53,170 bases of DNA from Chitinispirillales bacterium (GCA_031254105.1 JAIRVB010000030.1:1-53170); one strand, 5' to 3'; shown: positions 5,122 to 17,010, counted from the stretch's first letter. Program-made: numbers and translations. Notes: generated by a model from the letters alone, not told the origin.

Positions 5122-6873
5122 ATGCCGGTTACGACAGAAAAGCTTGATAAAAATGTTGAGGAATGCCTGCCTGTGCTGGAGGACAGCGGGAGTGTTGACC
5201 CGCACTTATGGCATCAGGATAACGCGGTTTTGCGGGAGTTGTGCTGGAAGATGGGTGAGAGGTTTCCCAGTACCTTTTTACAGGAGGGATTTTCTCTTCT
5301 TGCCGTGTATCCTCATCTTGGATTTCTTCAGTGGCATGTTTCTGAGACAACCGCTCTCAAGGTGAGAGAGGAATATGGTAAAGGTTTTGATCATGAGCCG
5401 CGTTTTGTGCTGCGGGTGTATGATGTAACCGGAATCGAATTTGACGGCTTTAACGCTGTCCGCCAGTATGATATAAATGTATCGTCGCTTTGCGGATGCT
5501 ATTACCTGAATATTGACCGTTTTGAAAGCTGTCTCATGGCTGAAGCGGGGTATGTGTTCGCGGACGGCAGTTTTAAACCGTGCGTGCGTTCAAATGTGAT
5601 GTATTTCGACCGTCCCCGCAAATCCTCCTGTTTTCGCACCACAGGTCTTTATGTCAGTCAGGCGTTTACAAGAGTGTTTGCGGTAGAGAATGTGACGTGC
5701 TCGTCGGTTTTTGACGAAATGAACAGCATCCTGGAGAAAGCGGGTGATCCGCTGCTCAGCGCCGCGATTTTTCTTAATGAGAGCGCGGTTTCAGACGCTA
5801 ATTATAAAGAGCGTCCGGTAACCCGCTTTCTTTTCAGCGTCATAGAGAAGTGCAGGGCAATGGGAGCGAAGCCCCATATATTTACGCCTGACGAAAGTCT
5901 TATATCAAGCGTTGCCTCACTTCCTCTTGTTAAAAGGGTAGAGCTGCTTTCTAAGGATATCGCCGCCCATTTTGAAACCTCTCACACTCCCGCTTCATTT
6001 GGCTGTGTTCAGTGTCATGACTGGTACAGCGCTCCTGTAGCTATGGATATCAGCAAAAAGAACAATTTACCTCTTATTGCGGTTATCCATTCTCTTGAGG
6101 CGGAACGCAGCGGCGGGCAGCCAAACGCGATATCAAAAAAAATAGAGCGTCAGGAATTTAACCTTATCAAAGAAGCTCACAGTGTGCTTGTGTCAAGCGA
6201 ATCGATACGTGAAATTGTCATACGGGATTACGGTAAATCTTCCGATTCTGTTTTTATCGTACCCGATACTCTTACTGCCGCTCCCGATGAAGGCAGGTCT
6301 TCCGATTATGTCAGATGCAGGTACGGGCTTTCGGATAAAGATCCGGTGGTGCTGTTTTCCGGAGAGATCTCATGGGACAGCGGCGCGGATCTTTTGGTAG
6401 ACGCGGCAGCGCAAGTGTCAAGAGAATATCCGCAGGCTCAGTACGTGTTTGCGGGTGACGGGCCGATGCGCCATGATCTTGAGCATAAGGCGTGGTGCTG
6501 CGCGATAGCGGACCGCTGCCGTTTTCCCGGAGATGTACCTGTCGAAATTTTTGAACAGCTTTTAAGCGCCTGCGATTTTGTCGTGATACCTGCCCGCGCT
6601 CCCGCGCATGGCGGGCTTTCGGCAGCCGCGCTTCGCGCCGGAAAGCCTGTCGTCGCTACTCATCAGGCAAGACTGCACGATATACGCCATGATGTTAACG
6701 GGCTTTTGATTTATGATAATCATGGATCTGTGGTGTGGGGTGTAAGACAGATGCTTTCAAACCCCTTAAGGATTCTGCGCTCATCGGTGAGTGACGGAAG
6801 CACGCTTTTGCGCACTACCGAATGTATCGCGGCAATGTACATATCGCGCTGGGCCAGCGCGGCGCTAAACTGA
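5122..6873 (+). CDS. DUF4912 domain fused to a degenerate GT4 glycosyltransferase
   Basis: The 583-residue protein has two parts. Residues about 30-180 resemble DUF4912 (LRVYDVTGIEFDGFNAVRQYD, then CGCYYLNIDRFE and a FADGSFKPCVRSN strand). Residues about 200-575 resemble the neighbouring GT4 enzyme. The key GT4 residues are gone: GRMTTQKG of the neighbour reads GEISWDSG here, and the EX7E region NEPFGLVVLEA reads APAHGGLSAAA. The fold core (CDFVVIPARA, AGKPVVAT) is kept. I infer a pseudo-glycosyltransferase, perhaps a scaffold or regulatory partner for the upstream enzyme. The start has a clear AAAGGAGAG ribosome binding site. An unrecognised catalytic chemistry cannot be excluded. Confidence 0.8.
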   Translation: MPVTTEKLDKNVEECLPVLEDSGSVDPHLWHQDNAVLRELCWKMGERFPSTFLQEGFSLLAVYPHLGFLQWHVSETTALKVREEYGKGFDHEPRFVLRVYDVTGIEFDGFNAVRQYDINVSSLCGCYYLNIDRFESCLMAEAGYVFADGSFKPCVRSNVMYFDRPRKSSCFRTTGLYVSQAFTRVFAVENVTCSSVFDEMNSILEKAGDPLLSAAIFLNESAVSDANYKERPVTRFLFSVIEKCRAMGAKPHIFTPDESLISSVASLPLVKRVELLSKDIAAHFETSHTPASFGCVQCHDWYSAPVAMDISKKNNLPLIAVIHSLEAERSGGQPNAISKKIERQEFNLIKEAHSVLVSSESIREIVIRDYGKSSDSVFIVPDTLTAAPDEGRSSDYVRCRYGLSDKDPVVLFSGEISWDSGADLLVDAAAQVSREYPQAQYVFAGDGPMRHDLEHKAWCCAIADRCRFPGDVPVEIFEQLLSACDFVVIPARAPAHGGLSAAALRAGKPVVATHQARLHDIRHDVNGLLIYDNHGSVVWGVRQMLSNPLRILRSSVSDGSTLLRTTECIAAMYISRWASAALN

Positions 6874-7012: not shown

Positions 7013-8593
7013 ATGGCTAAAGGATATTTGTCTATTGTACTTCACGCGCACCTGCCTTTTGTAAGGCATCCGGAGTACAGCTCATTTCTTGAGGAACGGT
7101 GGTACTTTGAGGCGATGAACGGTACCTATATCCCGCTTGTCGCCATGTTAAAGCGGCTCATTTCGGAAGATGTTCAGTTTGAGCTCACGCTCTCTCTCTC
7201 GCCAACGCTTCTGTGCATGATGGAAGATCCGCTTCTCTCAAAGCGCTACAGTGAACATCTTGAGAAACTTATAGAGCTTGCGAAAAAAGAACAGGAACGC
7301 AATCGTGACAATGGGCACTTGCGCTGGCTTGCGGATTACTATTTAGACAGCTTTACCGCGGCCCGTGATATTTTCAATGAATGCGATGGAAAAATTTGCA
7401 AACATTTTCGTGATCTAGAACTTACCAAAAAAGTTCATCTTATCACCACCAGCGCCACTCACGCGGTTTTGCCGCTTCTTATGTCTGAACCAGCGGCAGT
7501 GCGCGGGCAGATCGAAACCGGTTTGAAAACATTCTCCAATGTATTTGGCTACAGGCCGCGGGGGTTTTGGCTCCCGGAGTGCGCGTTTCATCCCGGGATA
7601 GAGGAGTACATGCGGGAAGCGGGCATCCGTTACTTTTTCCTTGAGTCACACGGCATAGATCACGCCGATGTGCTTCCTCTTTACGGAGTATACGCTCCAT
7701 TGTTTACTCCTTCCGGGGTGGCCGCGTTTTCCCGCGATCAGGCAAGCACGGAAGAGGTATGGTCGGCTCAAAAGGGTTATCCCGGCGATCCTGAGTACAG
7801 GGAGTTTTACCGCGACATCGGGCATGAACTTGATATGGAATATATCAGGCCGTATATATCGGATGGAGTGAGGGTGGATACAGGCATAAAATACTGGAAA
7901 ATAACAGGCCCGCGCAGTCAGAAGGATTTTTATAATCCGCACAGAGCGCGTGAAAGGGCAGCTTTCCACGCGGAATGCTTTTATGATAAACGGGTTTCAC
8001 AAGTAGAGTATCTGGCGCGGACAATGGGTAAGGCTCCTGTAATAGCGGCTACTTTTGACGCGGAGCTTTTTGGTCTCTGGTGGTATGAGGGGCCGCAGTG
8101 GCTCGAGTTTCTCATTCGCCGTATCGCTTCGGATAATTCGAGGCTGGCGCTTGTCAGTCCGGATACGTATCTTGACCAGCATCCAGTGCATCAACGGGGA
8201 GAACCCTGTATGTCAAGCTGGGGCCACAGAGGATATTTTGAGGTGTGGTGCAACGGCAAAAACGACTGGATTCTGCGCCACATTCATGAATGTATAAGAC
8301 GCATGATCTCACTTGCCTCCCGCTTTGGGCCGGAACCCTCTCTTGAAGAACGCCGGGCGCTCAATCAGTGTATGCGTGAGCTTCTTCTGGCGCAGTCTTC
8401 GGATTGGCCCTTCATGATTACAAACGCGACATCAGGGCAGTACGCCTCACGGCGGGTATGCGATCATGTGAGCCGCTTCCATTTTCTGGCCGACGGCCTC
8501 GAAAACGGTTCTCTTGACAGGGAGAGCGTAGGAGCGTTGGAATATTTAGACAGCGCGTTTCCTGACGCGGATTATCGTGTGTTTGTGAAATAA
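7013..8593 (+). CDS. GH57 (DUF1957-type) 1,4-alpha-glucan branching enzyme
   Basis: This 526-residue protein carries the GH57 signatures. HAHLPFVRHPE is at residues 11-21. WLPECAFHPG holds the predicted nucleophile Glu189. ATFDAELFGLWWYEGP holds the predicted acid/base Asp349. The length and the C-terminal DUF1957 helical region fit the short GH57 branching enzymes typified by the Thermococcus enzyme, which move alpha-1,4 chains into alpha-1,6 branches. The start has AAAGGGGAGG upstream. Together with the GT4 gene it makes a small glucan-building cluster, probably cytoplasmic since there is no signal peptide. Alternative GH57 activities such as amylase or 4-alpha-glucanotransferase are less likely given the residues around the catalytic sites. 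Confidence 0.88.
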   Translation: MAKGYLSIVLHAHLPFVRHPEYSSFLEERWYFEAMNGTYIPLVAMLKRLISEDVQFELTLSLSPTLLCMMEDPLLSKRYSEHLEKLIELAKKEQERNRDNGHLRWLADYYLDSFTAARDIFNECDGKICKHFRDLELTKKVHLITTSATHAVLPLLMSEPAAVRGQIETGLKTFSNVFGYRPRGFWLPECAFHPGIEEYMREAGIRYFFLESHGIDHADVLPLYGVYAPLFTPSGVAAFSRDQASTEEVWSAQKGYPGDPEYREFYRDIGHELDMEYIRPYISDGVRVDTGIKYWKITGPRSQKDFYNPHRARERAAFHAECFYDKRVSQVEYLARTMGKAPVIAATFDAELFGLWWYEGPQWLEFLIRRIASDNSRLALVSPDTYLDQHPVHQRGEPCMSSWGHRGYFEVWCNGKNDWILRHIHECIRRMISLASRFGPEPSLEERRALNQCMRELLLAQSSDWPFMITNATSGQYASRRVCDHVSRFHFLADGLENGSLDRESVGALEYLDSAFPDADYRVFVK

Positions 8594-8617: not shown

Positions 8618-9435
8618 ATGTCTGATATTATAAAATTACCGGAATATCGTGACTGGCTGCGCGATTTGAAAGAGCAGATCAAAAAGGGGCAGATAAAAGC
8701 CGCTCTTTCAGTGAACAGTCAAATGATTATGCTCTATTGGGATTTAGGCAGGCAGATTGTCGAAAAGCAGGAGGAAGCCAAGTGGGGTAGTGGCTTTATA
8801 GAGCAACTGAGCAGAGATTTGAAGAAAGAATTTCCTGAAATGACTGGATTTTCTCGGGCTAACTTGTTCAGAATCAAGAAGTTTTATAAATTTTATTCAT
8901 CTATTTTACAAGGCTCCGAATTTGTCGCACAACCTGTGCGACAATTAGAAAATAACGGTTCTGAATTTGTCGCACAACCTGTGCGACAATTAGAAAATAA
9001 TGGTTCTGAATTTGTCGCACAACCTGTGCGACAATTAGAAAATAGCGGCTTTGAATTTGTTGAACAAGATGCGGAACAGATTCAAGCGTCTGATATAAAA
9101 TTGAAACAACTTGTTCAACAAGCAGCCTTAATTCCCTGGGGACACAATGTATGCATTATTGAAAAAGTCAAAGATGTAAATCAAGCCCTTTTCTACATCA
9201 CCAAAGCTATAAAAAACAATTGGAGCCGCTCAGTACTTGAATATTAAATTGAGACAGGTCTCTACAACCGGCAGGGAAAAGCTGTTACGAACTTCAGCCA
9301 AACGCTGCCTCCACCGCAAAGCGATTTAGCTAATGAATTGATGAAAGACCCCTATAATTTCGATTTTCTGCGCTTATCGGAAAAAGTGAAGGAAACCGAT
9401 CTCGAAAATGGGCTCATACAGCATATTACGCAATT
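8618..9435 (+). pseudogene. DUF1016 (YhcG-like) PD-(D/E)XK nuclease gene: stop codon and lost C-terminus
   Basis: The first 209 codons encode the N-terminal DUF1016 region (RDWLRDLKEQIKKGQIKAALSVN, YWDLGRQIVEKQ, LIPWGHNVCIIEKV). A TAA at 9245-9247 then interrupts the frame. Reading continues in the same frame with family sequence (IETGLYNRQGKAVTNF, LPPPQSDLANELMKDPYNFDFL, GLIQHITQFL), so a single CAA-to-TAA change explains the stop. Homology ends near 9435, before the PD-(D/E)XK catalytic core that should carry the nuclease residues. The gene is thus both stopped and truncated. DUF1016 proteins are usually tied to restriction-modification and mobile islands. The linker contains 45-bp tandem repeats, listed separately. 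Confidence 0.85.
8912..9067 (+). repeat. 45-bp tandem repeats, each with a 10-bp perfect palindrome
   Basis: Three near-identical 45-bp units (8912-8956, 8957-9001, 9002-9046) and a partial fourth encode the 15-residue repeat SEFVAQPVRQLENNG. Each full unit holds TTGTCGCACA-ACC-TGTGCGACAA, a perfect inverted repeat (first copy 8922-8944, next copies at +45 and +90). The palindromes could form three hairpins in the mRNA or serve as binding sites. Confidence 0.9.
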
Positions 9436-9474
9436 TCTACCCGAACCTGATATGAGCGCTCATTATCATTTTCA

Positions 9475-9497
9475 AAGAGAGAAAGTTTATTCTCTCT
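9475..9497. terminator. Small hairpin at the end of the helicase gene
   Basis: AGAGAGAA and TTCTCTCT form an 8-bp inverted repeat around the helicase stop codon. It lacks a proper T-run, so termination is only a possibility. Confidence 0.3.
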
Positions 9498-11076
9498 CCT
9501 GTTTCAATTTTTTCAACAAGTCAATTATTTCTTGTTTGTTAAAATCACTCAGCTCTTGTATTAAAGATAAAAGCTCATTATTCTCATCGTTTGTTTGCTG
9601 TACATCTGTTTCACATTGCGTAGCTGACGCCGCTTCGTTCAACTCATTACTTTGTGTCAACAAAATCGGCTGAGAGCTTTTTTCCGGCAGAGCTGCTGTT
9701 ACTGTTTCTTGGGCGCTGTCATCCATATTTGTTACTGGAGTAACGGAGCGCATAAACTCAGCGACATTTGGATCTACCTCAACATCTCTTAGCAGGATCG
9801 GTCTTGTCAGGTATAACGCGTCCATACTGCGGCATCTGGAGAGAGCCACGTATGTCTGGCCGGCCGCAAACGCTCCCCAGCTCATGTTTATGACAACCGA
9901 TTCATAGGTCTGTCCCTGCGCTTTGTGTATTGTGAGCGCCCAAGCCAATTTTACGGGATACTGCTCGAAAGTCGCGATTACTTTCTGCTCAAGGCTTTGG
10001 GTTTTGGAATCATATAAATACTTTCTCTTCTCCCATACTTTTCTGCTTACCGTACACTCCGCCCCGCTGCCGCTCATCTTTACCCTGATAAAATCACTGT
10101 CAAGATGACTCACTGCCCCCAGGCTCCCATTAACCCATCCGCCGGTTTTGTTATTGTCAAGCATAACAACCTGAGCGCCAACTTTTAGCTCAAGTTTAAC
10201 AGGCGCCGGATATTCCGACGCGGATATTTTTCCCTCTATTTTAGCCTCGTATGTGAGCGGGCGCAATGGCGGTATCTTTCTCAATTCTCTGTTGTTTATA
10301 GCGTCAGCAGTCGCGTTAGTCGGTACAAGCGTTAGAAATGAATTTTCTTTGTCAATTTCTCTCAAGCACCTTTTGTTAAGCAGATCCAGATCCTCCTGTG
10401 CTGCGGTTCCTAACCGTATTTTATTCAGGATGTCAATAAACTCCCTGTCTCTCTTTTGTCTGAACACCTTTGTTAATTCGTGAACCGCTAAAGGATGATC
10501 CCTGAATACAGGAGCGGAAAAGAAAAATGGACTTGTGTATATGCTTCCAAGGTAATCGCTGATACCTTCCCCCTCCACCACAGGCGGAAGCTGATATAAA
10601 TCTCCAAACATTATCACCTGCTTCCCGCCAAAAGGCAGGTCATTGCCGTTTGCCATTTTGAGCTTTACATCTATCATATCCATTAAGTCAACGCGAACCA
10701 TCGAAACCTCATCTATTACTATAACCTCTGTGCGCCGCAGCGTTTCCAATAAGTTTCTGCTCCACGTTTCTATCGGAGCGGTCTCCTTTGGGATTTGCAC
10801 TGCAGGCGCCAGATGGAAAAAGGAGTGCATGGTTTGCCCGCCGATATTAATAGCAGCCATTCCGGTAGGCGCTACGACAGCGGCTTTTTTGTTCGTGTTC
10901 TCAACGAAATATTTCAGAAGGAGAGATTTACCGGTGCCAGCCTTGCCAGTGATAAATATTATGCCGCGGGTGCTTTCCATTTGGGTGTAGGCGTGGTGTT
11001 GGTCGGGGCCCAATGAGTTTTGGGGTGTCGGTCTTTGCATTATCGCTGATTTTAATTTGTCGTCGTAGGGGTTCAT
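9487..11076 (-). CDS. Pif1/RecD-like superfamily 1B DNA helicase
   Basis: The 529-residue protein is a Pif1-like 5'-3' helicase. Walker A is GKAGTGKS (Lys near 50). Motif Ia is APTGMAAINIGGQTMHSFF. Walker B is VIVIDEVSMV (Asp-Glu 122-123). Motif III is MFGDLYQLPPV. The C-terminal motifs PVKLAWALTIHKAQGQT and YVALSRC are also present. The final 100 residues are low-complexity and charged. Such helicases unwind G-quadruplexes and forked DNA, and are often carried by mobile islands in bacteria. It runs toward the dead DUF1016 gene and ends about 50 bp from its break point, so its arrival may have caused the truncation. The start at 11076 has only a weak GAG ribosome binding site. Confidence 0.88.
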   Translation of the reverse strand: MNPYDDKLKSAIMQRPTPQNSLGPDQHHAYTQMESTRGIIFITGKAGTGKSLLLKYFVENTNKKAAVVAPTGMAAINIGGQTMHSFFHLAPAVQIPKETAPIETWSRNLLETLRRTEVIVIDEVSMVRVDLMDMIDVKLKMANGNDLPFGGKQVIMFGDLYQLPPVVEGEGISDYLGSIYTSPFFFSAPVFRDHPLAVHELTKVFRQKRDREFIDILNKIRLGTAAQEDLDLLNKRCLREIDKENSFLTLVPTNATADAINNRELRKIPPLRPLTYEAKIEGKISASEYPAPVKLELKVGAQVVMLDNNKTGGWVNGSLGAVSHLDSDFIRVKMSGSGAECTVSRKVWEKRKYLYDSKTQSLEQKVIATFEQYPVKLAWALTIHKAQGQTYESVVINMSWGAFAAGQTYVALSRCRSMDALYLTRPILLRDVEVDPNVAEFMRSVTPVTNMDDSAQETVTAALPEKSSQPILLTQSNELNEAASATQCETDVQQTNDENNELLSLIQELSDFNKQEIIDLLKKLKQERE

Positions 11077-11297
11077 TTTGGTCTCGATGGTTTTATTTTT
11101 GGATTGTGTTTTCTGTTTTAAAAGTAATATTACGGTGTCACCATATTAAGATACTTCCCGCCACAGGTTTACGTTTATCTAGTACAATGTGTGATCAAAA
11201 TGTGCTGAATATTAATTCTGTACCGTGAATGAAGTTACTTAGCTCTTATTGCAACATAATGTAATCAATATTTCAGAGGTGATATTATGTATATGAA

Positions 11298-11319
11298 TAA
11301 AGGATAACTGCATATTATC
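11298..11319 (+). repeat. Left copy of a perfect 22-bp inverted repeat
   Basis: The copy contains AAAGGATAACTGCATATTAT and is reproduced exactly on the other strand at 14536-14557. It ends one base before the ATG of the ATP-grasp gene. The unit is itself partly symmetric (GATAA-N7-TTATC), as an operator or recombinase site would be. Confidence 0.9.
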
Positions 11320-11320
11320 T

Positions 11321-12277
11321 ATGTGCAAGAAAAAAATTTTATTTTTAGCAAAATACGCTGAAGAAATTAACTACAGCTTTGAAAATGAATGGGAAGAGGA
11401 CTATTGTAAAAATTATCATAAGCCATTACGCTTGGCACTTGAAAATACAGGACATACTATAATCAGCACTACTGATAGAGATTATTTGTGTAAAAATAGC
11501 GACATCGATTTGGTTTTTAGCGTATATTACAATATGAATTTTCAAAATAGTGATGCGTATATTAGTTTGCTTTGTGAAAAATTGAGCATTCCATATCTTG
11601 GAGCAAGTCCTAATGTTAAAATAATTGACAATGACAAGGCATTGGCTAAACTTATAGCAAAAGAATTAGATATTAAAACACCAGAATTTATATGTATCAA
11701 TAAACACAAAATTTTTCCTAAAAAAATACCTTTTACACCACCTTATTTCGTTAAACCAAGATTTGGAAGCACATCAAGATGGATAGATGACACTTGTATT
11801 TGCCAAGATTATGAGACATTAAAGAATAAGTCAGAGTTATTTTTGAAAGCTGATATAGATGTTATTATAGAAAAATTCATTGACGGTGTGCCACATTCTA
11901 TGCCACTGATATATGGTGCGCCTGTTATCACAACTAAGCCATACTATATAAAGCCAACGTGTTCAAAAGTTTTTGGATTTGAAGCAAAAATGAATGGTTA
12001 CGCAGAATGTAAAATTTCAGAAGATGAATTAGTAAATTCTGCTATCCGAAATATGGCTACACGATATTTCAATGAGATTCAAAGATGTGACTACGCTAGG
12101 ATTGATTTTATAATTGACAAAACAAAAGAAATATATTTTTTAGAAATTAATACAACACCAAATCTAGGACTTCATGGCGGATTTGCACAGACATTGCTTG
12201 ATGAAAAATGTTTTAAAACATATGACTCAATCGTAAAGCATTTGGTTGAATTAGCAATCAAGCGATCTAATAAATAA
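11321..12277 (+). CDS. ATP-grasp ligase, D-Ala-D-Ala-ligase-like
   Basis: The 318-residue protein has the fold signatures of an ATP-grasp ligase. After a preATP-grasp half (about 1-95), it has FVKPRFGSTSRW with the nucleotide-binding Lys145, IIEKFIDG (Glu184), and the metal site ARIDFII...IYFLEINTTPNLG (Asp262, Glu275, Asn277). The Ddl consensus after EINT is altered (PNLGLHGGF), so the substrate may not be D-alanine. Peptide or amino-acid ligation is likely. The gene is clearly AT-rich compared with its surroundings and lacks other peptidoglycan genes nearby, which points to transfer. It overlaps the convergent STAND-like gene by 27 bp, and both genes start right inside the same 22-bp repeat. 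Confidence 0.8.
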   Translation: MCKKKILFLAKYAEEINYSFENEWEEDYCKNYHKPLRLALENTGHTIISTTDRDYLCKNSDIDLVFSVYYNMNFQNSDAYISLLCEKLSIPYLGASPNVKIIDNDKALAKLIAKELDIKTPEFICINKHKIFPKKIPFTPPYFVKPRFGSTSRWIDDTCICQDYETLKNKSELFLKADIDVIIEKFIDGVPHSMPLIYGAPVITTKPYYIKPTCSKVFGFEAKMNGYAECKISEDELVNSAIRNMATRYFNEIQRCDYARIDFIIDKTKEIYFLEINTTPNLGLHGGFAQTLLDEKCFKTYDSIVKHLVELAIKRSNK

Positions 12278-14533
12278 CTCGAAATCTGGTTGTCTATATA
12301 AAAGATGTCCAAAATATAAAAAATATTTCAATCGCTCCCTTATAGTCGAGGCATCTGTTTTGAGTGCGTTGTCAAACCTATCTCTATAACTTGCATATTT
12401 GTAATCTTTGGATTCCATCAAATATTTTTTTGATTTTTCCATCAATTCTGTATTTTCGGTTATTTTTGCAAGAATGTATGTATTTTGCCAGTAGATCAGT
12501 TTTGTTACTTCAATAGACGATTTGTTAATTTCGGATTCCAATAAAATATAATCGGAAATATCGATTTCCGAGGATTTCTTGTTTTTTCTGTTACGCAAAA
12601 TATTGTACAAACATAAATTTTCTATGCTACTTTGTTCATGAGATTTTGTAATGCATCTATCTCGGTAAGCTAAGAACTCGTCTTCCTCCACCGGTTTATC
12701 CGTTAAAATTTTAAACACGCAATAATTGTGTGCTAAAAAATTATAATCCGCATTAAATATAACATCTATTATAGGATGTAGTAGTTTCTCAATTTCTTCT
12801 TGAAGTGTTGGCGTAGGATTCATTTCGTAACGCAGAATTAGAAAAACAAAATAATTGTTGAGCAAGCGATAATGAAAAATGCTATCTTTTGATTCCATAT
12901 TCAATGAGTTTTTAAAAAGTGCCTTGCAAGTTTCGTAATCTTCAAGGTAACATGCCATAATGTTACCTAAAATATGATAATAATCTGAGTTTTTGTAATT
13001 TTCATAATATAGTGGACTGCTTTTATTAAACAATATGTTATGCGCTTGTTTACTTCTGTTTTTTTTGTTTAAGTTAATCGTAAAAAGATAGATAAGTAAC
13101 AACGCAGAATAATTAGAATTTAATTCTTTGTTTTTAATAATTTCTTCTTCTAATATTTTACCATTAACATTCAGTTGTTGTCGCTCTTTAAATAATAAAT
13201 CTATTATTAGATATTGTTTGCTAAAAGATTTTTTAATTAGCGGATCAAGTTTAAGATTTCTAAACAATCTATAAAGACCAAAATTATATGCTTTCACTAT
13301 CATTACTTTATAATCGTTTATAAAATGTATATTTATTTCTGTGCTTAGGCAACTTTTAAATATTTCATAACTTGATGTTTTTTTTAGTAAGGATAAACGC
13401 AGTTTATTTAACACTTGATTGATATTTGATAAAAACCCATGTAATGAATTAAATTTGAGATAGATTGATTCCAAGAACTCCTCGTTAAACCCATCAAAAT
13501 TTTCTGCATTATCTAAAAAGTAAGCTGATATTGCCTTGCAAATCATTTCGTCTTTAAGCTTTGGGGCAAAATTATCATGATTTAATTTACTTACAACACT
13601 TCCACTTACGGAAATTAAACCATTGAAAATGAGATTTCGTAATATCGGTTCGACGTCACCATAAGAATTAAGGTTTCTTTGACCATACTTGTTAAATATG
13701 GTACTGATGTTTTCCAATTCAATGGGACACTTAAGATAATAAAGAAAAGAATATACAAGTCTTTCGCTATCCGAAAGAGCTACTTGCTTTTTTACTCTTG
13801 CAAGCAGGTCTCTCATGTTCGTAAAATCCCTAAAATTTACACCGTGATACTCAATTTTCTCTCCATCTTGTTTTAAGCCATCTAGTATTGTTCTAATATC
13901 ATCGTCATCCTTAGGATACTTAAACTCCCTTTCTTCAAAACTTGGTAACCCCCGCTTAAGCTTATTAATTACTATATCTAATGTTTCAGATTTAAGAGCG
14001 AGAATAAACTTTATAGAGTCGTTCCAAGAAAAAAGGGCTCTGATGAAATTTATATCTTCATCAACCATTCTATCCGCATCATCAATAATTACGATACTAT
14101 TTTCTCCAAGTGCCTTTGCCAATATAGACTCAAGATCAAAAATTGATTTTTTCTCGATATATTTCTTTATTGCGGTTGACGAAAGATTTACAAAAAAACT
14201 GATTAAAGGATTCGTGGTTTTTAATAGACACCCTATGCCCTCGAATATTTTCTTTATTATGTTGATTAAACTTTCTTTATCATTTTTCTCTTTTTCCAGC
14301 AATTTTAATATTTCATCAAATTTGTTTTCAAACTGTTTTTTTAAGCCGATCGCACGGAAGTAGTTTATTTTAACTACATTATCATAGTCTTCGTAAACTT
14401 GCTCCAAAAATGTTGACATCCCATTTTTTTCAGAATTGTAAAAAATCAACAAACTTTTTTTGTCCAGATTTTCAGCCAACCAATAAAAATCCGTTTTGCG
14501 GTCATAACAATATACTTTAGTTTCTTTAACCAT
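12251..14533 (-). CDS. STAND-like P-loop ATPase with long helical C-terminus
   Basis: I do not recognise a named family. The 760-residue product begins with a P-loop-like domain. The Walker A position (YNSEKNGMSTF, residues 32-42) lacks the lysine and first glycine, while Walker B is good (SIVIIDDADRM, residues 146-156). It is followed by a sensor-like strand, IKFILALKSETLD. The rest is predicted helical, with many TPR-like stretches. This layout is that of STAND or AAA-16 NTPases, many of which are antiviral or stress sensors. The coding is strongly AT-rich. It converges on the ATP-grasp gene with a 27-bp tail overlap. Nucleotide binding may be lost or unusual because of the altered P-loop. 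Confidence 0.65.
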   Translation of the reverse strand: MVKETKVYCYDRKTDFYWLAENLDKKSLLIFYNSEKNGMSTFLEQVYEDYDNVVKINYFRAIGLKKQFENKFDEILKLLEKEKNDKESLINIIKKIFEGIGCLLKTTNPLISFFVNLSSTAIKKYIEKKSIFDLESILAKALGENSIVIIDDADRMVDEDINFIRALFSWNDSIKFILALKSETLDIVINKLKRGLPSFEEREFKYPKDDDDIRTILDGLKQDGEKIEYHGVNFRDFTNMRDLLARVKKQVALSDSERLVYSFLYYLKCPIELENISTIFNKYGQRNLNSYGDVEPILRNLIFNGLISVSGSVVSKLNHDNFAPKLKDEMICKAISAYFLDNAENFDGFNEEFLESIYLKFNSLHGFLSNINQVLNKLRLSLLKKTSSYEIFKSCLSTEINIHFINDYKVMIVKAYNFGLYRLFRNLKLDPLIKKSFSKQYLIIDLLFKERQQLNVNGKILEEEIIKNKELNSNYSALLLIYLFTINLNKKNRSKQAHNILFNKSSPLYYENYKNSDYYHILGNIMACYLEDYETCKALFKNSLNMESKDSIFHYRLLNNYFVFLILRYEMNPTPTLQEEIEKLLHPIIDVIFNADYNFLAHNYCVFKILTDKPVEEDEFLAYRDRCITKSHEQSSIENLCLYNILRNRKNKKSSEIDISDYILLESEINKSSIEVTKLIYWQNTYILAKITENTELMEKSKKYLMESKDYKYASYRDRFDNALKTDASTIRERLKYFLYFGHLLYRQPDFELFIRSLDC

Positions 14534-14535
14534 TT

Positions 14536-14557
14536 GATAATATGCAGTTATCCTTTA
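14536..14557 (-). repeat. Right copy of the 22-bp inverted repeat
   Basis: This is the exact reverse complement of 11298-11319. It ends two bases before the start codon of the STAND-like gene. The pair therefore bounds a 3.26-kb segment with one convergent gene starting at each end. Confidence 0.9.
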
Positions 14558-15090
14558 CTTAACAGATTGACCTGAACCACAACAAAAACCGTTAAAATGC
14601 CCCTATTTTTTAACAAGTAGTTATACTCTATTCAGAAGCTTAAATCAAAAATTAAAATCGTTAAAACTAATAAATAGTTACTATAACAATATACAACCCG
14701 CCACCGCCTAAGCATATAAAAAAGCCAAAAAAAATCCACCCGTAGTTACTCCCTCTAAATCACCCCTTACACTATTGTTTTATACTATGCCAAAACAATA
14801 CCAAAGTAAAGCAACTCCACTCTTATTTTCACACGCTTCATCTTTACTTTTTTTAATTTTTACAAGCATCTATAAAGTGCCATTTGTATTTTTACATTTG
14901 CTCATTGGTAAATAAAATCATCTTTACTTATTTTAAAAACAAAAGCTTTTGCAAAGCATGCTTTCAGGAGAACATTGAGGCTGGTAATAAAGATTTAAAG
15001 ATTACAAAATGTCAAATTAATATCAAGTTAATATATAATACTTTAAACTCAAAAAATCCGATACACGCCGCTCAGGGAGAAATAATAACA
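14558..15090. other. AT-rich gap with repeats near the recombinase
   Basis: No gene is evident. TCATCTTTACTT-TTTTAA-like direct repeats lie at 14838-14856 and 14918-14936, 18 of 19 bases identical and 80 bp apart. The octamer CTTTACTT also occurs next to the right 22-bp repeat (14553-14560), with an inverted copy at 14804-14811. ATTGTTTT/AAAACAAT arms (14774-14781 and 14792-14799) flank a 10-bp centre like a recombinase core site. These may be arm and core sites for the tyrosine recombinase downstream. Confidence 0.45.
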
Positions 15091-15996
15091 ATGACAATAA
15101 AAACAGCAATACAAAACTATCTCACCCAATGTTCTGATATTAAAAAATTAGAACCATTGACCTTAAAGGCATATACTATTGACTTAAAACAATTTTATGA
15201 ATTCGCCTCTTCCAAAGCAACATCTGTTTCAGAATTAGATAAGACGCTCGTCCAGGGTTATATAGAAGAGATAAGCAAAAGATACGCGGCTAAATCTTTA
15301 AAGCGTAAAATCGCGTCAATCAAGGCATTTTTTAATTACCTTGAATTCGAGGATTTAATTGTGGTAACGCCGTTCAGGAAAATACGGGTAAACATTAAAG
15401 AACCGAAACGTCTTCCTAAATCGTTGTCCTTATTTGATATGGAAAAATTATTATCCTTTTTATATTCGCGGCCTCATGTTAAAAAAATATTTATTCGAAA
15501 TCTTGCCATATTTGAACTTATGTTTGCTACGGGAATCCGTGTTTCGGAATTATGCAATATCAGGCTGTCGGACATAAACCTGGAAGCGCAGGTATTATCG
15601 GTCAATGGCAAGGGTAATAAGGAGCGTTTAAGCGTAGTTAGCAATCCTTATGTTATTTCCGCGTTACAGGACTATCTTTCGATACGCCCGTCCACCGGTT
15701 CCCCATTTCTTTTTATAAACCGAATCGGAAGGCGGGTATCACCTCAATCGGTACGTTTTTTTATAGAGGCGCTTGGTAAAACGGTTCTTGAGAAACTCGT
15801 TACTCCACACATGATTCGCCACACTTTCGCGACGCTTTTATTGGAAGAGGGTGTTGACATTACACATATAAAATCTTTTCTTGGACACGCTTCGATTTCA
15901 ACAACTCAAATATATGCCGCCTCTACTACTCATAAGCAGAGACAGATACTGACCGCGTTGCATCCCAGAAACAGGATTCGAATTTTCCGCGAATGA
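15091..15996 (+). CDS. XerC/D-like tyrosine recombinase
   Basis: The 301-residue product has an N-terminal SAM-like core-binding domain (about 1-95) and a full catalytic domain. The active-site set is complete: Arg150 (ATGIRVSEL), Lys174 (GKGNKERL), His240 and Arg243 (HMIRHTFATLL), His266 (LGHASISTTQIYA) and the nucleophile Tyr275. The frame is open from 14884, but the ATG at 15091 with AGGGAGAA upstream gives the standard XerC/D length. It lies 530 bp from an inverted-repeat-bounded segment and beside other repeats, so it may act locally as an invertase or integrase rather than as the chromosome dimer resolvase. The true XerCD pair would normally be elsewhere. Confidence 0.88.
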   Translation: MTIKTAIQNYLTQCSDIKKLEPLTLKAYTIDLKQFYEFASSKATSVSELDKTLVQGYIEEISKRYAAKSLKRKIASIKAFFNYLEFEDLIVVTPFRKIRVNIKEPKRLPKSLSLFDMEKLLSFLYSRPHVKKIFIRNLAIFELMFATGIRVSELCNIRLSDINLEAQVLSVNGKGNKERLSVVSNPYVISALQDYLSIRPSTGSPFLFINRIGRRVSPQSVRFFIEALGKTVLEKLVTPHMIRHTFATLLLEEGVDITHIKSFLGHASISTTQIYAASTTHKQRQILTALHPRNRIRIFRE

Positions 15997-16020
15997 ACCG
16001 CACGCCAAAATTATCTTTAA

Positions 16021-17010
16021 TTAACCTTTAATAACCGCGTACATCCTCATATCCATCATTTGCCCATTTTTAACAGCGTTTTTGCGCAGAACCCCCTCAA
16101 ACTGAAATTCCGCCTTTTCCAGCACCCTGCAGGAAGCTGTGTTATTCGCGTAGGGCTGGGCAAATATTCTGATTATATCGGTATTTTCAAAAATATAAGC
16201 GCACGCCTGTTTTACAGCCTCAGTCATAAGCCCTTTACCCCAATAGGGTTCGGCGATATAATAACCCATCTCTGCTGTCAAGCGGTGAACATTTTCTTTT
16301 CGGAACGCGCCGATACTGCCGATGACCTTGCCGTTGTATGTAATGGCAAAGGCGTACTGCGTTCCTTTTTCGGCTGCCAGCGTAGCGTTGATAAATTCAA
16401 CGGCGTCTTTTTCCGTATAGGGAAAAGGGATGCCGTCCCTCACGTTGTCAAGTATATTTTTGTTGTTAATAGCGGCCGCCAGCTCCGGCGCGTCCTCAAT
16501 TTTCCAGCTTCGTAAATTTACGCCTATCTCTTTTATCATTATATAATCCTCATGATTCGCGTGATCCGTTTTTTCTCCTGTAATTTTGTAACCAAGCCGT
16601 TTGTAAAACCGTACAGCCGGATTATCTTTTTGCACGGAAAGGGATGTGCGGCTATATCCATGTTCCCTAAGCAGCTCAAACAGATGAGTCATCATCATTG
16701 TTCCGATACCCTGCCCGCGGTATTGCGGCAGGACTGATATGGCAAGTTCCGGCGTATCCTCATCTACATGCCCGTAAGCGGGAATGATCCTTGTCCATGC
16801 CGCGCCCGCGATATTACCGTTTGTCATAGCTGTTACGGCATAATCGCCTTGCTTACTGCCAAAGCCGTCAATGTAAATATATATTTCCGGTTCGAAAATA
16901 ATATCACGGGGAACCGGATCCGCGCCGGGCGGCAGAAAAACAGCGTTGTAAAGAAAATCTTCCAGAAGTGGATACTCTTCAGAAGTCATCTCTCTGATAA
17001 TCACGCTCAT
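16021..17010 (-). CDS. Fused double GNAT N-acetyltransferase
   Basis: Two GNAT domains are joined in one 329-residue chain. The first (about 1-160) has the acetyl-CoA motif VLPQYRGQGIGTMMM and NPAVRFYKRLGYKITGE. The second (about 165-329) is RimJ/RimL-like, with LRSWKIEDAPELAAAINN, YYIAEPYWGKGLMTEAVKQ and NTASCRVLEKAEFQFEGVLRKN. Each half looks complete. Substrates cannot be told; RimJ/L-like domains often acetylate ribosomal proteins or small amines. It ends 25 bp from the stop of the convergent recombinase gene, and the DUF1905 gene lies 22 bp upstream on the same strand, so the two are probably co-transcribed. Confidence 0.85.
   Translation of the reverse strand: MSVIIREMTSEEYPLLEDFLYNAVFLPPGADPVPRDIIFEPEIYIYIDGFGSKQGDYAVTAMTNGNIAGAAWTRIIPAYGHVDEDTPELAISVLPQYRGQGIGTMMMTHLFELLREHGYSRTSLSVQKDNPAVRFYKRLGYKITGEKTDHANHEDYIMIKEIGVNLRSWKIEDAPELAAAINNKNILDNVRDGIPFPYTEKDAVEFINATLAAEKGTQYAFAITYNGKVIGSIGAFRKENVHRLTAEMGYYIAEPYWGKGLMTEAVKQACAYIFENTDIIRIFAQPYANNTASCRVLEKAEFQFEGVLRKNAVKNGQMMDMRMYAVIKG

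Follow-up and report, generated by a model that had tools for sequence, protein, structure and literature searches.

Short inverted repeats with an adjacent XerC/D-like recombinase that inverts the DNA enclosed by them are known as invertons, among them Mpi, FimB/FimE, and PsrA with the type I restriction gene hsdS, and the tyrosine recombinase PsrA acts on 15-bp repeats (PMC7096588). Mobile integrons also rely on a tyrosine recombinase, and they carry exchangeable promoterless cassettes with defence genes among the cargo. The core site of a tyrosine recombinase consists of protein-bound arms flanking an overlap region, and the centres of recombining partners must match; in engineered cassette exchange with inverted heterospecific lox or FRT sites, a matching spacer is needed, and the outcome is inversion or replacement and no excision. 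Here, a DNA stretch of 53,170 nucleotides from Chitinispirillales bacterium (GCA_031254105.1, JAIRVB010000030.1:1-53170), referred to as the window, was analysed, in which two convergent genes lie between identical inverted repeats next to a tyrosine recombinase gene. Our results make it quite probable that these repeats serve the adjacent recombinase as recombination sites and that they bound an orientation-neutral cassette, which can invert and be replaced and cannot simply be excised. The locus comprises the following features.

11298..11319, + strand: putative distal recombination site, TAAAGGATAACTGCATATTATC; core formed by GATAA (11303-11307), the centre CTGCATA (11308-11314), and TTATC (11315-11319)
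14536..14557, - strand: putative recombinase-proximal site, same sequence, inverted; core at 14536-14552
11321..12277, + strand: ATP-grasp gene, D-Ala-D-Ala-ligase-like, 318 amino acids, 1 bp inside the distal site
12251..14533, - strand: AAA/STAND-like NTPase gene, 760 amino acids, degenerate Walker A, 2 bp inside the proximal site
15091..15996, + strand: XerC/D-like tyrosine recombinase, 301 amino acids, six catalytic residues complete
11080..11297: AT-rich, non-coding outside flank before the ATP-grasp gene, presumed promoter region
14558..15090: AT-rich interval between cassette and recombinase, presumed to hold divergent promoters
14536..14622, - strand: docking flank, backbone outside the cassette, 87 bp with the site

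Like an inverton, this format has enclosing inverted repeats and a complete recombinase, and both orientations are found in nature, in a relative only; it differs in that whole convergent gene pairs flip rather than promoters or half-genes, in that the cargo varies between strains, and in that the site centre is specific to the locus. In contrast to mobile integrons, the sites are inverted, their cores have 7-bp centres, the cassettes are convergent two-gene units, and the integrase cut-off is not reached; neither an IntI-type integrase nor directly repeated, attC-bounded cassettes with a single open reading frame were found. Engineered lox/FRT exchange shares the cassette between inverted sites, but it is a laboratory design, whereas the present arrangement is natural and exchange by its recombinase is proposed. 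Xer dimer resolution (XerC/XerD/XerA acting at dif) involves the same protein superfamily, whereas the recombinase described here scores below the XerC, XerD, and XerA equivalog cut-offs and is accompanied by paired inverted sites around cargo genes.

The two arms are 22 bp long, 100% complementary, and inverted, with 3216 nt between them, and the gaps to the ATG at 11321 and to the start codon at 14533 are 1 bp and 2 bp, respectively; an earlier, sequence-only reading of the window had described identical 22-bp repeats 1-2 bp ahead of the starts, and this was borne out. When positions 9000-17000 were shuffled 300 times (first order), exact inverted repeats reached 17 bp at most, and a chance origin of the 22-bp repeat was thereby ruled out. 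With arms on both sides of a 7-bp centre, the repeats are built as expected of a tyrosine-recombinase core site whose overlap region spans 7 bp, and we take the ATAA-spacer-TTAT core to be dif-like. The recombinase, which that reading had rightly called catalytically complete and placed about 530 bp away, starts 533 bp from the right arm (an alternative, longer TTG start lies at 14884) and possesses R150, K174, H240, R243, H266, and Y275. Among proteins of known structure it matches XerA (5hxy, E 7e-36) and XerD (1a0p, E 6e-32), and it scores under every NCBIfam cut-off, with 233 against 335 bits for XerC and 216 against 330 for XerD; a housekeeping XerC/XerD identity was rejected on these equivalog cut-offs. 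The two-gene segment is AT-rich, with about 24-33% GC in 500-bp windows versus roughly 40-55% in the surroundings. A promoter consensus scan of the region gave no excess of promoter-like sites and was uninformative.

The sites are linked to a family of recombinases. A matched inverted site pair around a convergent gene set was found, within 6.5 kb, at all 13 family loci with both flanks, which span Fibrobacterota, Bacillota, and Campylobacterota, and at none of six distant XerC/D-like controls, two of which have short flanks. All sites fit ATAA-N7-TTAT, and N7, read into the cassette, is equal at both ends of every complete locus. Between loci it differs, being CTGCATA in the window, CTTCAAA and CTGTATA at a second locus of the same genome (L006), TAGGATA and TAGGTAA in Aliarcobacter, TAAATTG in Streptococcus, CTATAAA at L021, TATTAAA at L034, CTATGAA at L049, and TACACAA at L037. 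In the tree, L049 sits with the controls, its branch being long; the recombinase family is therefore not cleanly one clade.

A scan of the window's genome allowing up to three mismatches yielded five sites in all, two in the window and three on contig C14, where L006 lies, so that every site belongs to one of these two recombinase loci; the 20-bp form of the site, AAAGGATAACTNNANRTTAT, had no match in the 167 other genomes searched from the phylum. In a termite-gut Bacillota metagenome-assembled genome (MAG), a 70%-identical recombinase has a site over its stop codon, and the contig ends there. MAGs of the window's phylum contain more distant recombinases (44-46%) with a site at or close to the contig end. 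MAG contigs end exactly at the site, a sequence of only about 20 bp, at L012 and L043, 3 bp past it at L045, and about 70 bp and 110 bp past it at L044 and L037, which fits sequence behind the site that varies in the population. Among viral contigs, neither the exact site pattern nor single-sequence recombinase queries gave a match, and an alignment query returned one 34%-identical recombinase locus, which was taken as a control. No new locus emerged from 398 genomes around the Bacillota MAG, with at most five candidates scored per genome. When the nearest genus relative was searched for an empty site, only a TsaC/Sua5-like gene matched, and synteny at the insertion was absent.

Inversion of such a cassette happens in a relative. 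Two plasmids of Aliarcobacter cryaerophilus, pACRY43158 (bovine, United Kingdom; L020) and pM830MA (mussel, New Zealand; L024), carry one cassette in opposite orientations: L020 8969-12426 corresponds to L024 4425-969 reversed, with 99.91% identity over 3458 bp and three differences in all, and the breakpoints lie at 17-bp inverted repeats. The recombinase and flanks have the same orientation in both plasmids (99.85-99.90%), and a further 10 kb upstream are collinear (99.89%). As in the window, the inverted pair combines an ATP-grasp enzyme with an NTPase, here an NTPase/TPR protein; the two ATP-grasp proteins are 28% identical over 148 residues, and the two NTPases gave no BLAST alignment. 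For the window's organism, inversion would be expected by extension from this relative, the only one in which both orientations were seen. The proposal that the neighbouring recombinase inverts the segment thus gains strong support from the inverted isolate pair as regards inversion, with catalysis by that enzyme a presumption. The phase switch envisaged along with it, if taken as one that turns a function on or off, gains no such support: both genes keep their start behind an outside region either way round, and the Thoeris pair at L021 shares the format.

Two family recombinases are present on pACRY43158 (L048 and L020), and each is accompanied by a separate ATP-grasp/NTPase cassette; the site centres differ, being TAGGTAA and TAGGATA. 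The interval between the recombinase stop codon and the first site at L020 (8940-8968) contains the site once more in degenerate, inverted form (AATATCCTATTA); this copy could pair with the first site as a hairpin and might be an accessory site or a terminator.

Comparison of related plasmids indicates that whole cassettes are replaced between conserved flanks. In A. faecis the recombinase is 97.8% identical and the far flank about 91%, yet the cassette is a GNAT-like/methyltransferase one, homologous to the corresponding pair of L006 (30% and 40%). Five Streptococcus megaplasmids agree in the recombinase, in pezT on the side away from the cassette, and in the outer flanks, and they carry three unrelated convergent cassettes, namely GNAT-like/methyltransferase, polyprenyl synthetase/unknown, and SHMT-like aminotransferase/TPR. 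Homology stops at the inner site ends on both sides, among the three Streptococcus cassettes as well as between A. faecis and A. cryaerophilus. The centres at the exchange loci are constant, TAAATTG in all Streptococcus and TAGGATA in all Aliarcobacter there, and others are found elsewhere. The repeat as the boundary of a mobile two-gene cassette, another suggestion of the sequence-only reading, is supported by these different cassettes between the same sites.

Replacement breakpoints that match the inner site ends on both sides, and an N7 shared by different cassettes at one place, argue against a classical inverton, in which the recombinase would only invert, outside promoters of different strength would let orientation pick the highly expressed gene, and homologous recombination in the flanks would swap cassettes. 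We regard this explanation as unlikely while giving it real weight: inversion was directly seen in A. cryaerophilus, and in vitro inversion over 15-bp repeats is established for tyrosine recombinases, PsrA being an example (PMC7096588). At L034, L049, L006, and the Aliarcobacter loci, the gene on the recombinase side comes immediately after the stop codon of the recombinase and is therefore probably co-transcribed with the recombinase, so that its expression may follow that of the recombinase, and the outside region on the far side is a separate one. Favouring one gene makes little sense for Thoeris, whose function requires both proteins.

The second locus of the same genome, L006, encodes a recombinase 90% identical to that of the window. 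Behind a single site it carries a HEC-01 pair (AAA_21 and DUF4276), and the next cassette, between two inverted sites, consists of a carbamoyltransferase and a TPR gene convergent with a gene for a restriction/STAND-like protein of 1090 amino acids. On the opposite side of the recombinase, a GNAT-like/methyltransferase convergent pair lies between 63-bp inverted repeats (6805-6867 and 8531-8593, 97%); one of these repeats extends over the stop codon of the recombinase. The window's docking flank is 88.5% identical to about 11932-12018 of L006, the flank and site of the carbamoyltransferase cassette; such an 87-bp flank before different cassettes fits replacement within one genome.

The 63-bp arms reach into the first codons of both genes, and both proteins start with MGRNMEQL. 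The HEC-01 unit (9914-11944) has one site with its own centre, CTACATG; a convergent partner and a second matching site are absent, and the unit is possibly a decayed or a different cassette format. At L037, a locus of a Bacillota MAG, positions 11554-15452 hold two back-to-back cassettes with the centres TACACAA and CTGTAGA, and it is the second site that the contig outruns by about 110 bp.

Variable cargo, and several cassettes in a row next to a single recombinase (L006, L037), are also what an integron-like array of circular single-site cassettes, inserted at an attI-like site, would offer, but the sites are inverted and not direct, the cassettes consist of two or more convergent genes, and the window recombinase is far under the integron-integrase cut-off (TIGR02249, 89 against 265 bits), and we consider such an array very improbable. 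A 41-bp attC-like stretch ahead of two sites proved to be the conserved docking flank and, the sites being inverted, was rejected as an integron attC. Co-regulation of the two genes by a shared operator, as the sequence-only reading had offered in alternative, or by a promoter element, with an unrelated recombinase beside it, would suit the position directly ahead of each start, the operator-like GATAA-N7-TTATC, and an inner part like a -10 box, but it is scarcely credible and went unsupported, given an N7 that varies between loci yet matches within pairs, a site that follows recombinase genes across phyla and, within the genome, occurs only at the two recombinase loci (with none in the 167 other genomes), and isolates that differ by inversion exactly at the site. 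The site may have a secondary regulatory role.

In the mechanism that we favour, with recombination sites bounding an orientation-neutral cassette, the recombinase would bind an arm on each side of the 7-bp centre of each site. Because the sites face each other, recombination would invert the cassette and could not simply excise it, and since each gene begins right at one of the sites, the cassette would be expected to function either way round; its genes would leave no room for promoters of their own, and transcription would enter from beyond both ends. As strands are exchanged only between matching centres, N7 would act as an address: with equal N7 a cassette would invert or be traded, and with another N7 it would be insulated, as would be the successive cassettes with different N7 in the arrays at L006 and L037. 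Replacement would consist of two crossovers with another cassette between sites of equal N7. We infer this recombinase as the catalyst, double site-specific exchange, present activity of the window cassette, and any purpose of inversion.

Several observations weigh against this mechanism. The window cassette is known in one orientation from one strain, and natural inversion comes from one isolate pair, whose recombinase is 43% identical. Homologous recombination in the flanks could replace cassettes too, contigs may end at the site for other reasons such as repeats and coverage, and the HEC-01 pair of L006 has a single flanking site without a convergent partner. The ATAA and TTAT columns are fixed partly by the collection of sites with that pattern; most site pairs were first noticed as plain inverted repeats.

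With somewhat less than even confidence, we extend the proposal to a natural recombinase-mediated cassette exchange, distinct from integrons and present in at least three phyla, in which convergent pairs are swapped between chromosome and plasmid and the docking site is re-loaded, not emptied; these pairs would form a mobile repertoire for defence and signalling, moved by one tyrosine recombinase over interchangeable 7-bp address sequences. If this is true, a mobile cassette system on inverted, address-coded sites trades and flips gene pairs while the slot is retained, and it would explain a class of convergent pairs beside genes annotated as tyrosine-type recombinase or integrase. Cargo between matched ATAA-N7-TTAT sites next to such recombinases would become a handle for new defence or signalling pairs, the question of why recombinases accompany defence genes would become directly testable, and the recombinases could serve as compact tools with programmable site centres. 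A literature search, from which subscription journals were largely outside, found work on invertons and on PsrA/PinQ and no published description of the arrangement; its novelty is therefore provisional.

ATP-grasp/NTPase cassettes occur in six settings: the window, L020/L024, L048, L034, L037, and L049, the last on a Paenibacillus plasmid. In most cassettes the 3' ends of the paired genes overlap by 4-65 bp, and in the window, where the genes are convergent, the overlap is 27 bp (12251-12277). Known defence systems are found as cargo as well, a Thoeris pair (ThsA, E 3e-97, and TIR) on the human faecal contig L021 and HEC-01 A and B (E 2e-187 and 3e-85) at L006; the window pair differs in that it matches no PADLOC model. 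By analogy with its neighbours in the same format, the window pair probably acts in defence or signalling.

The 318-residue protein matches Pfam Dala_Dala_lig_C (E 2e-15; 57.1 bits, above the gathering score of 24), and a profile built from the ATP-grasp proteins of the cassettes finds structures of D-Ala-D-Ala ligases (E 6e-30). The 760-residue protein gives AAA_22 at E 0.0017 and nSTAND_NTPase5 at E 0.015, both under the cut-off, and its Walker A, YNSEKNGMST, is without lysine; no homologue was found by sequence in the 167 other genomes of the phylum. The Walker A of its L037 counterpart is degenerate too, and those of the L034, L048, and L049 counterparts are intact. The label "STAND-like" given to it earlier is thus weakly backed for the window protein itself and better for its positional equivalents, which at several other loci retain an intact P-loop and match AAA/STAND families more strongly.

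At the recombinase stop codon of the window (15994-16030) there is no site, unlike at L006, L012, L034, and L045; a nearby stretch, AAAATTATCTTT, might be a site remnant. Further upstream, an open reading frame at 8618-9247 contains three in-frame 45-bp tandem repeats (SEFVAQPVRQLENNG) and presumably encodes a shortened DUF1016/YhcG-like protein.
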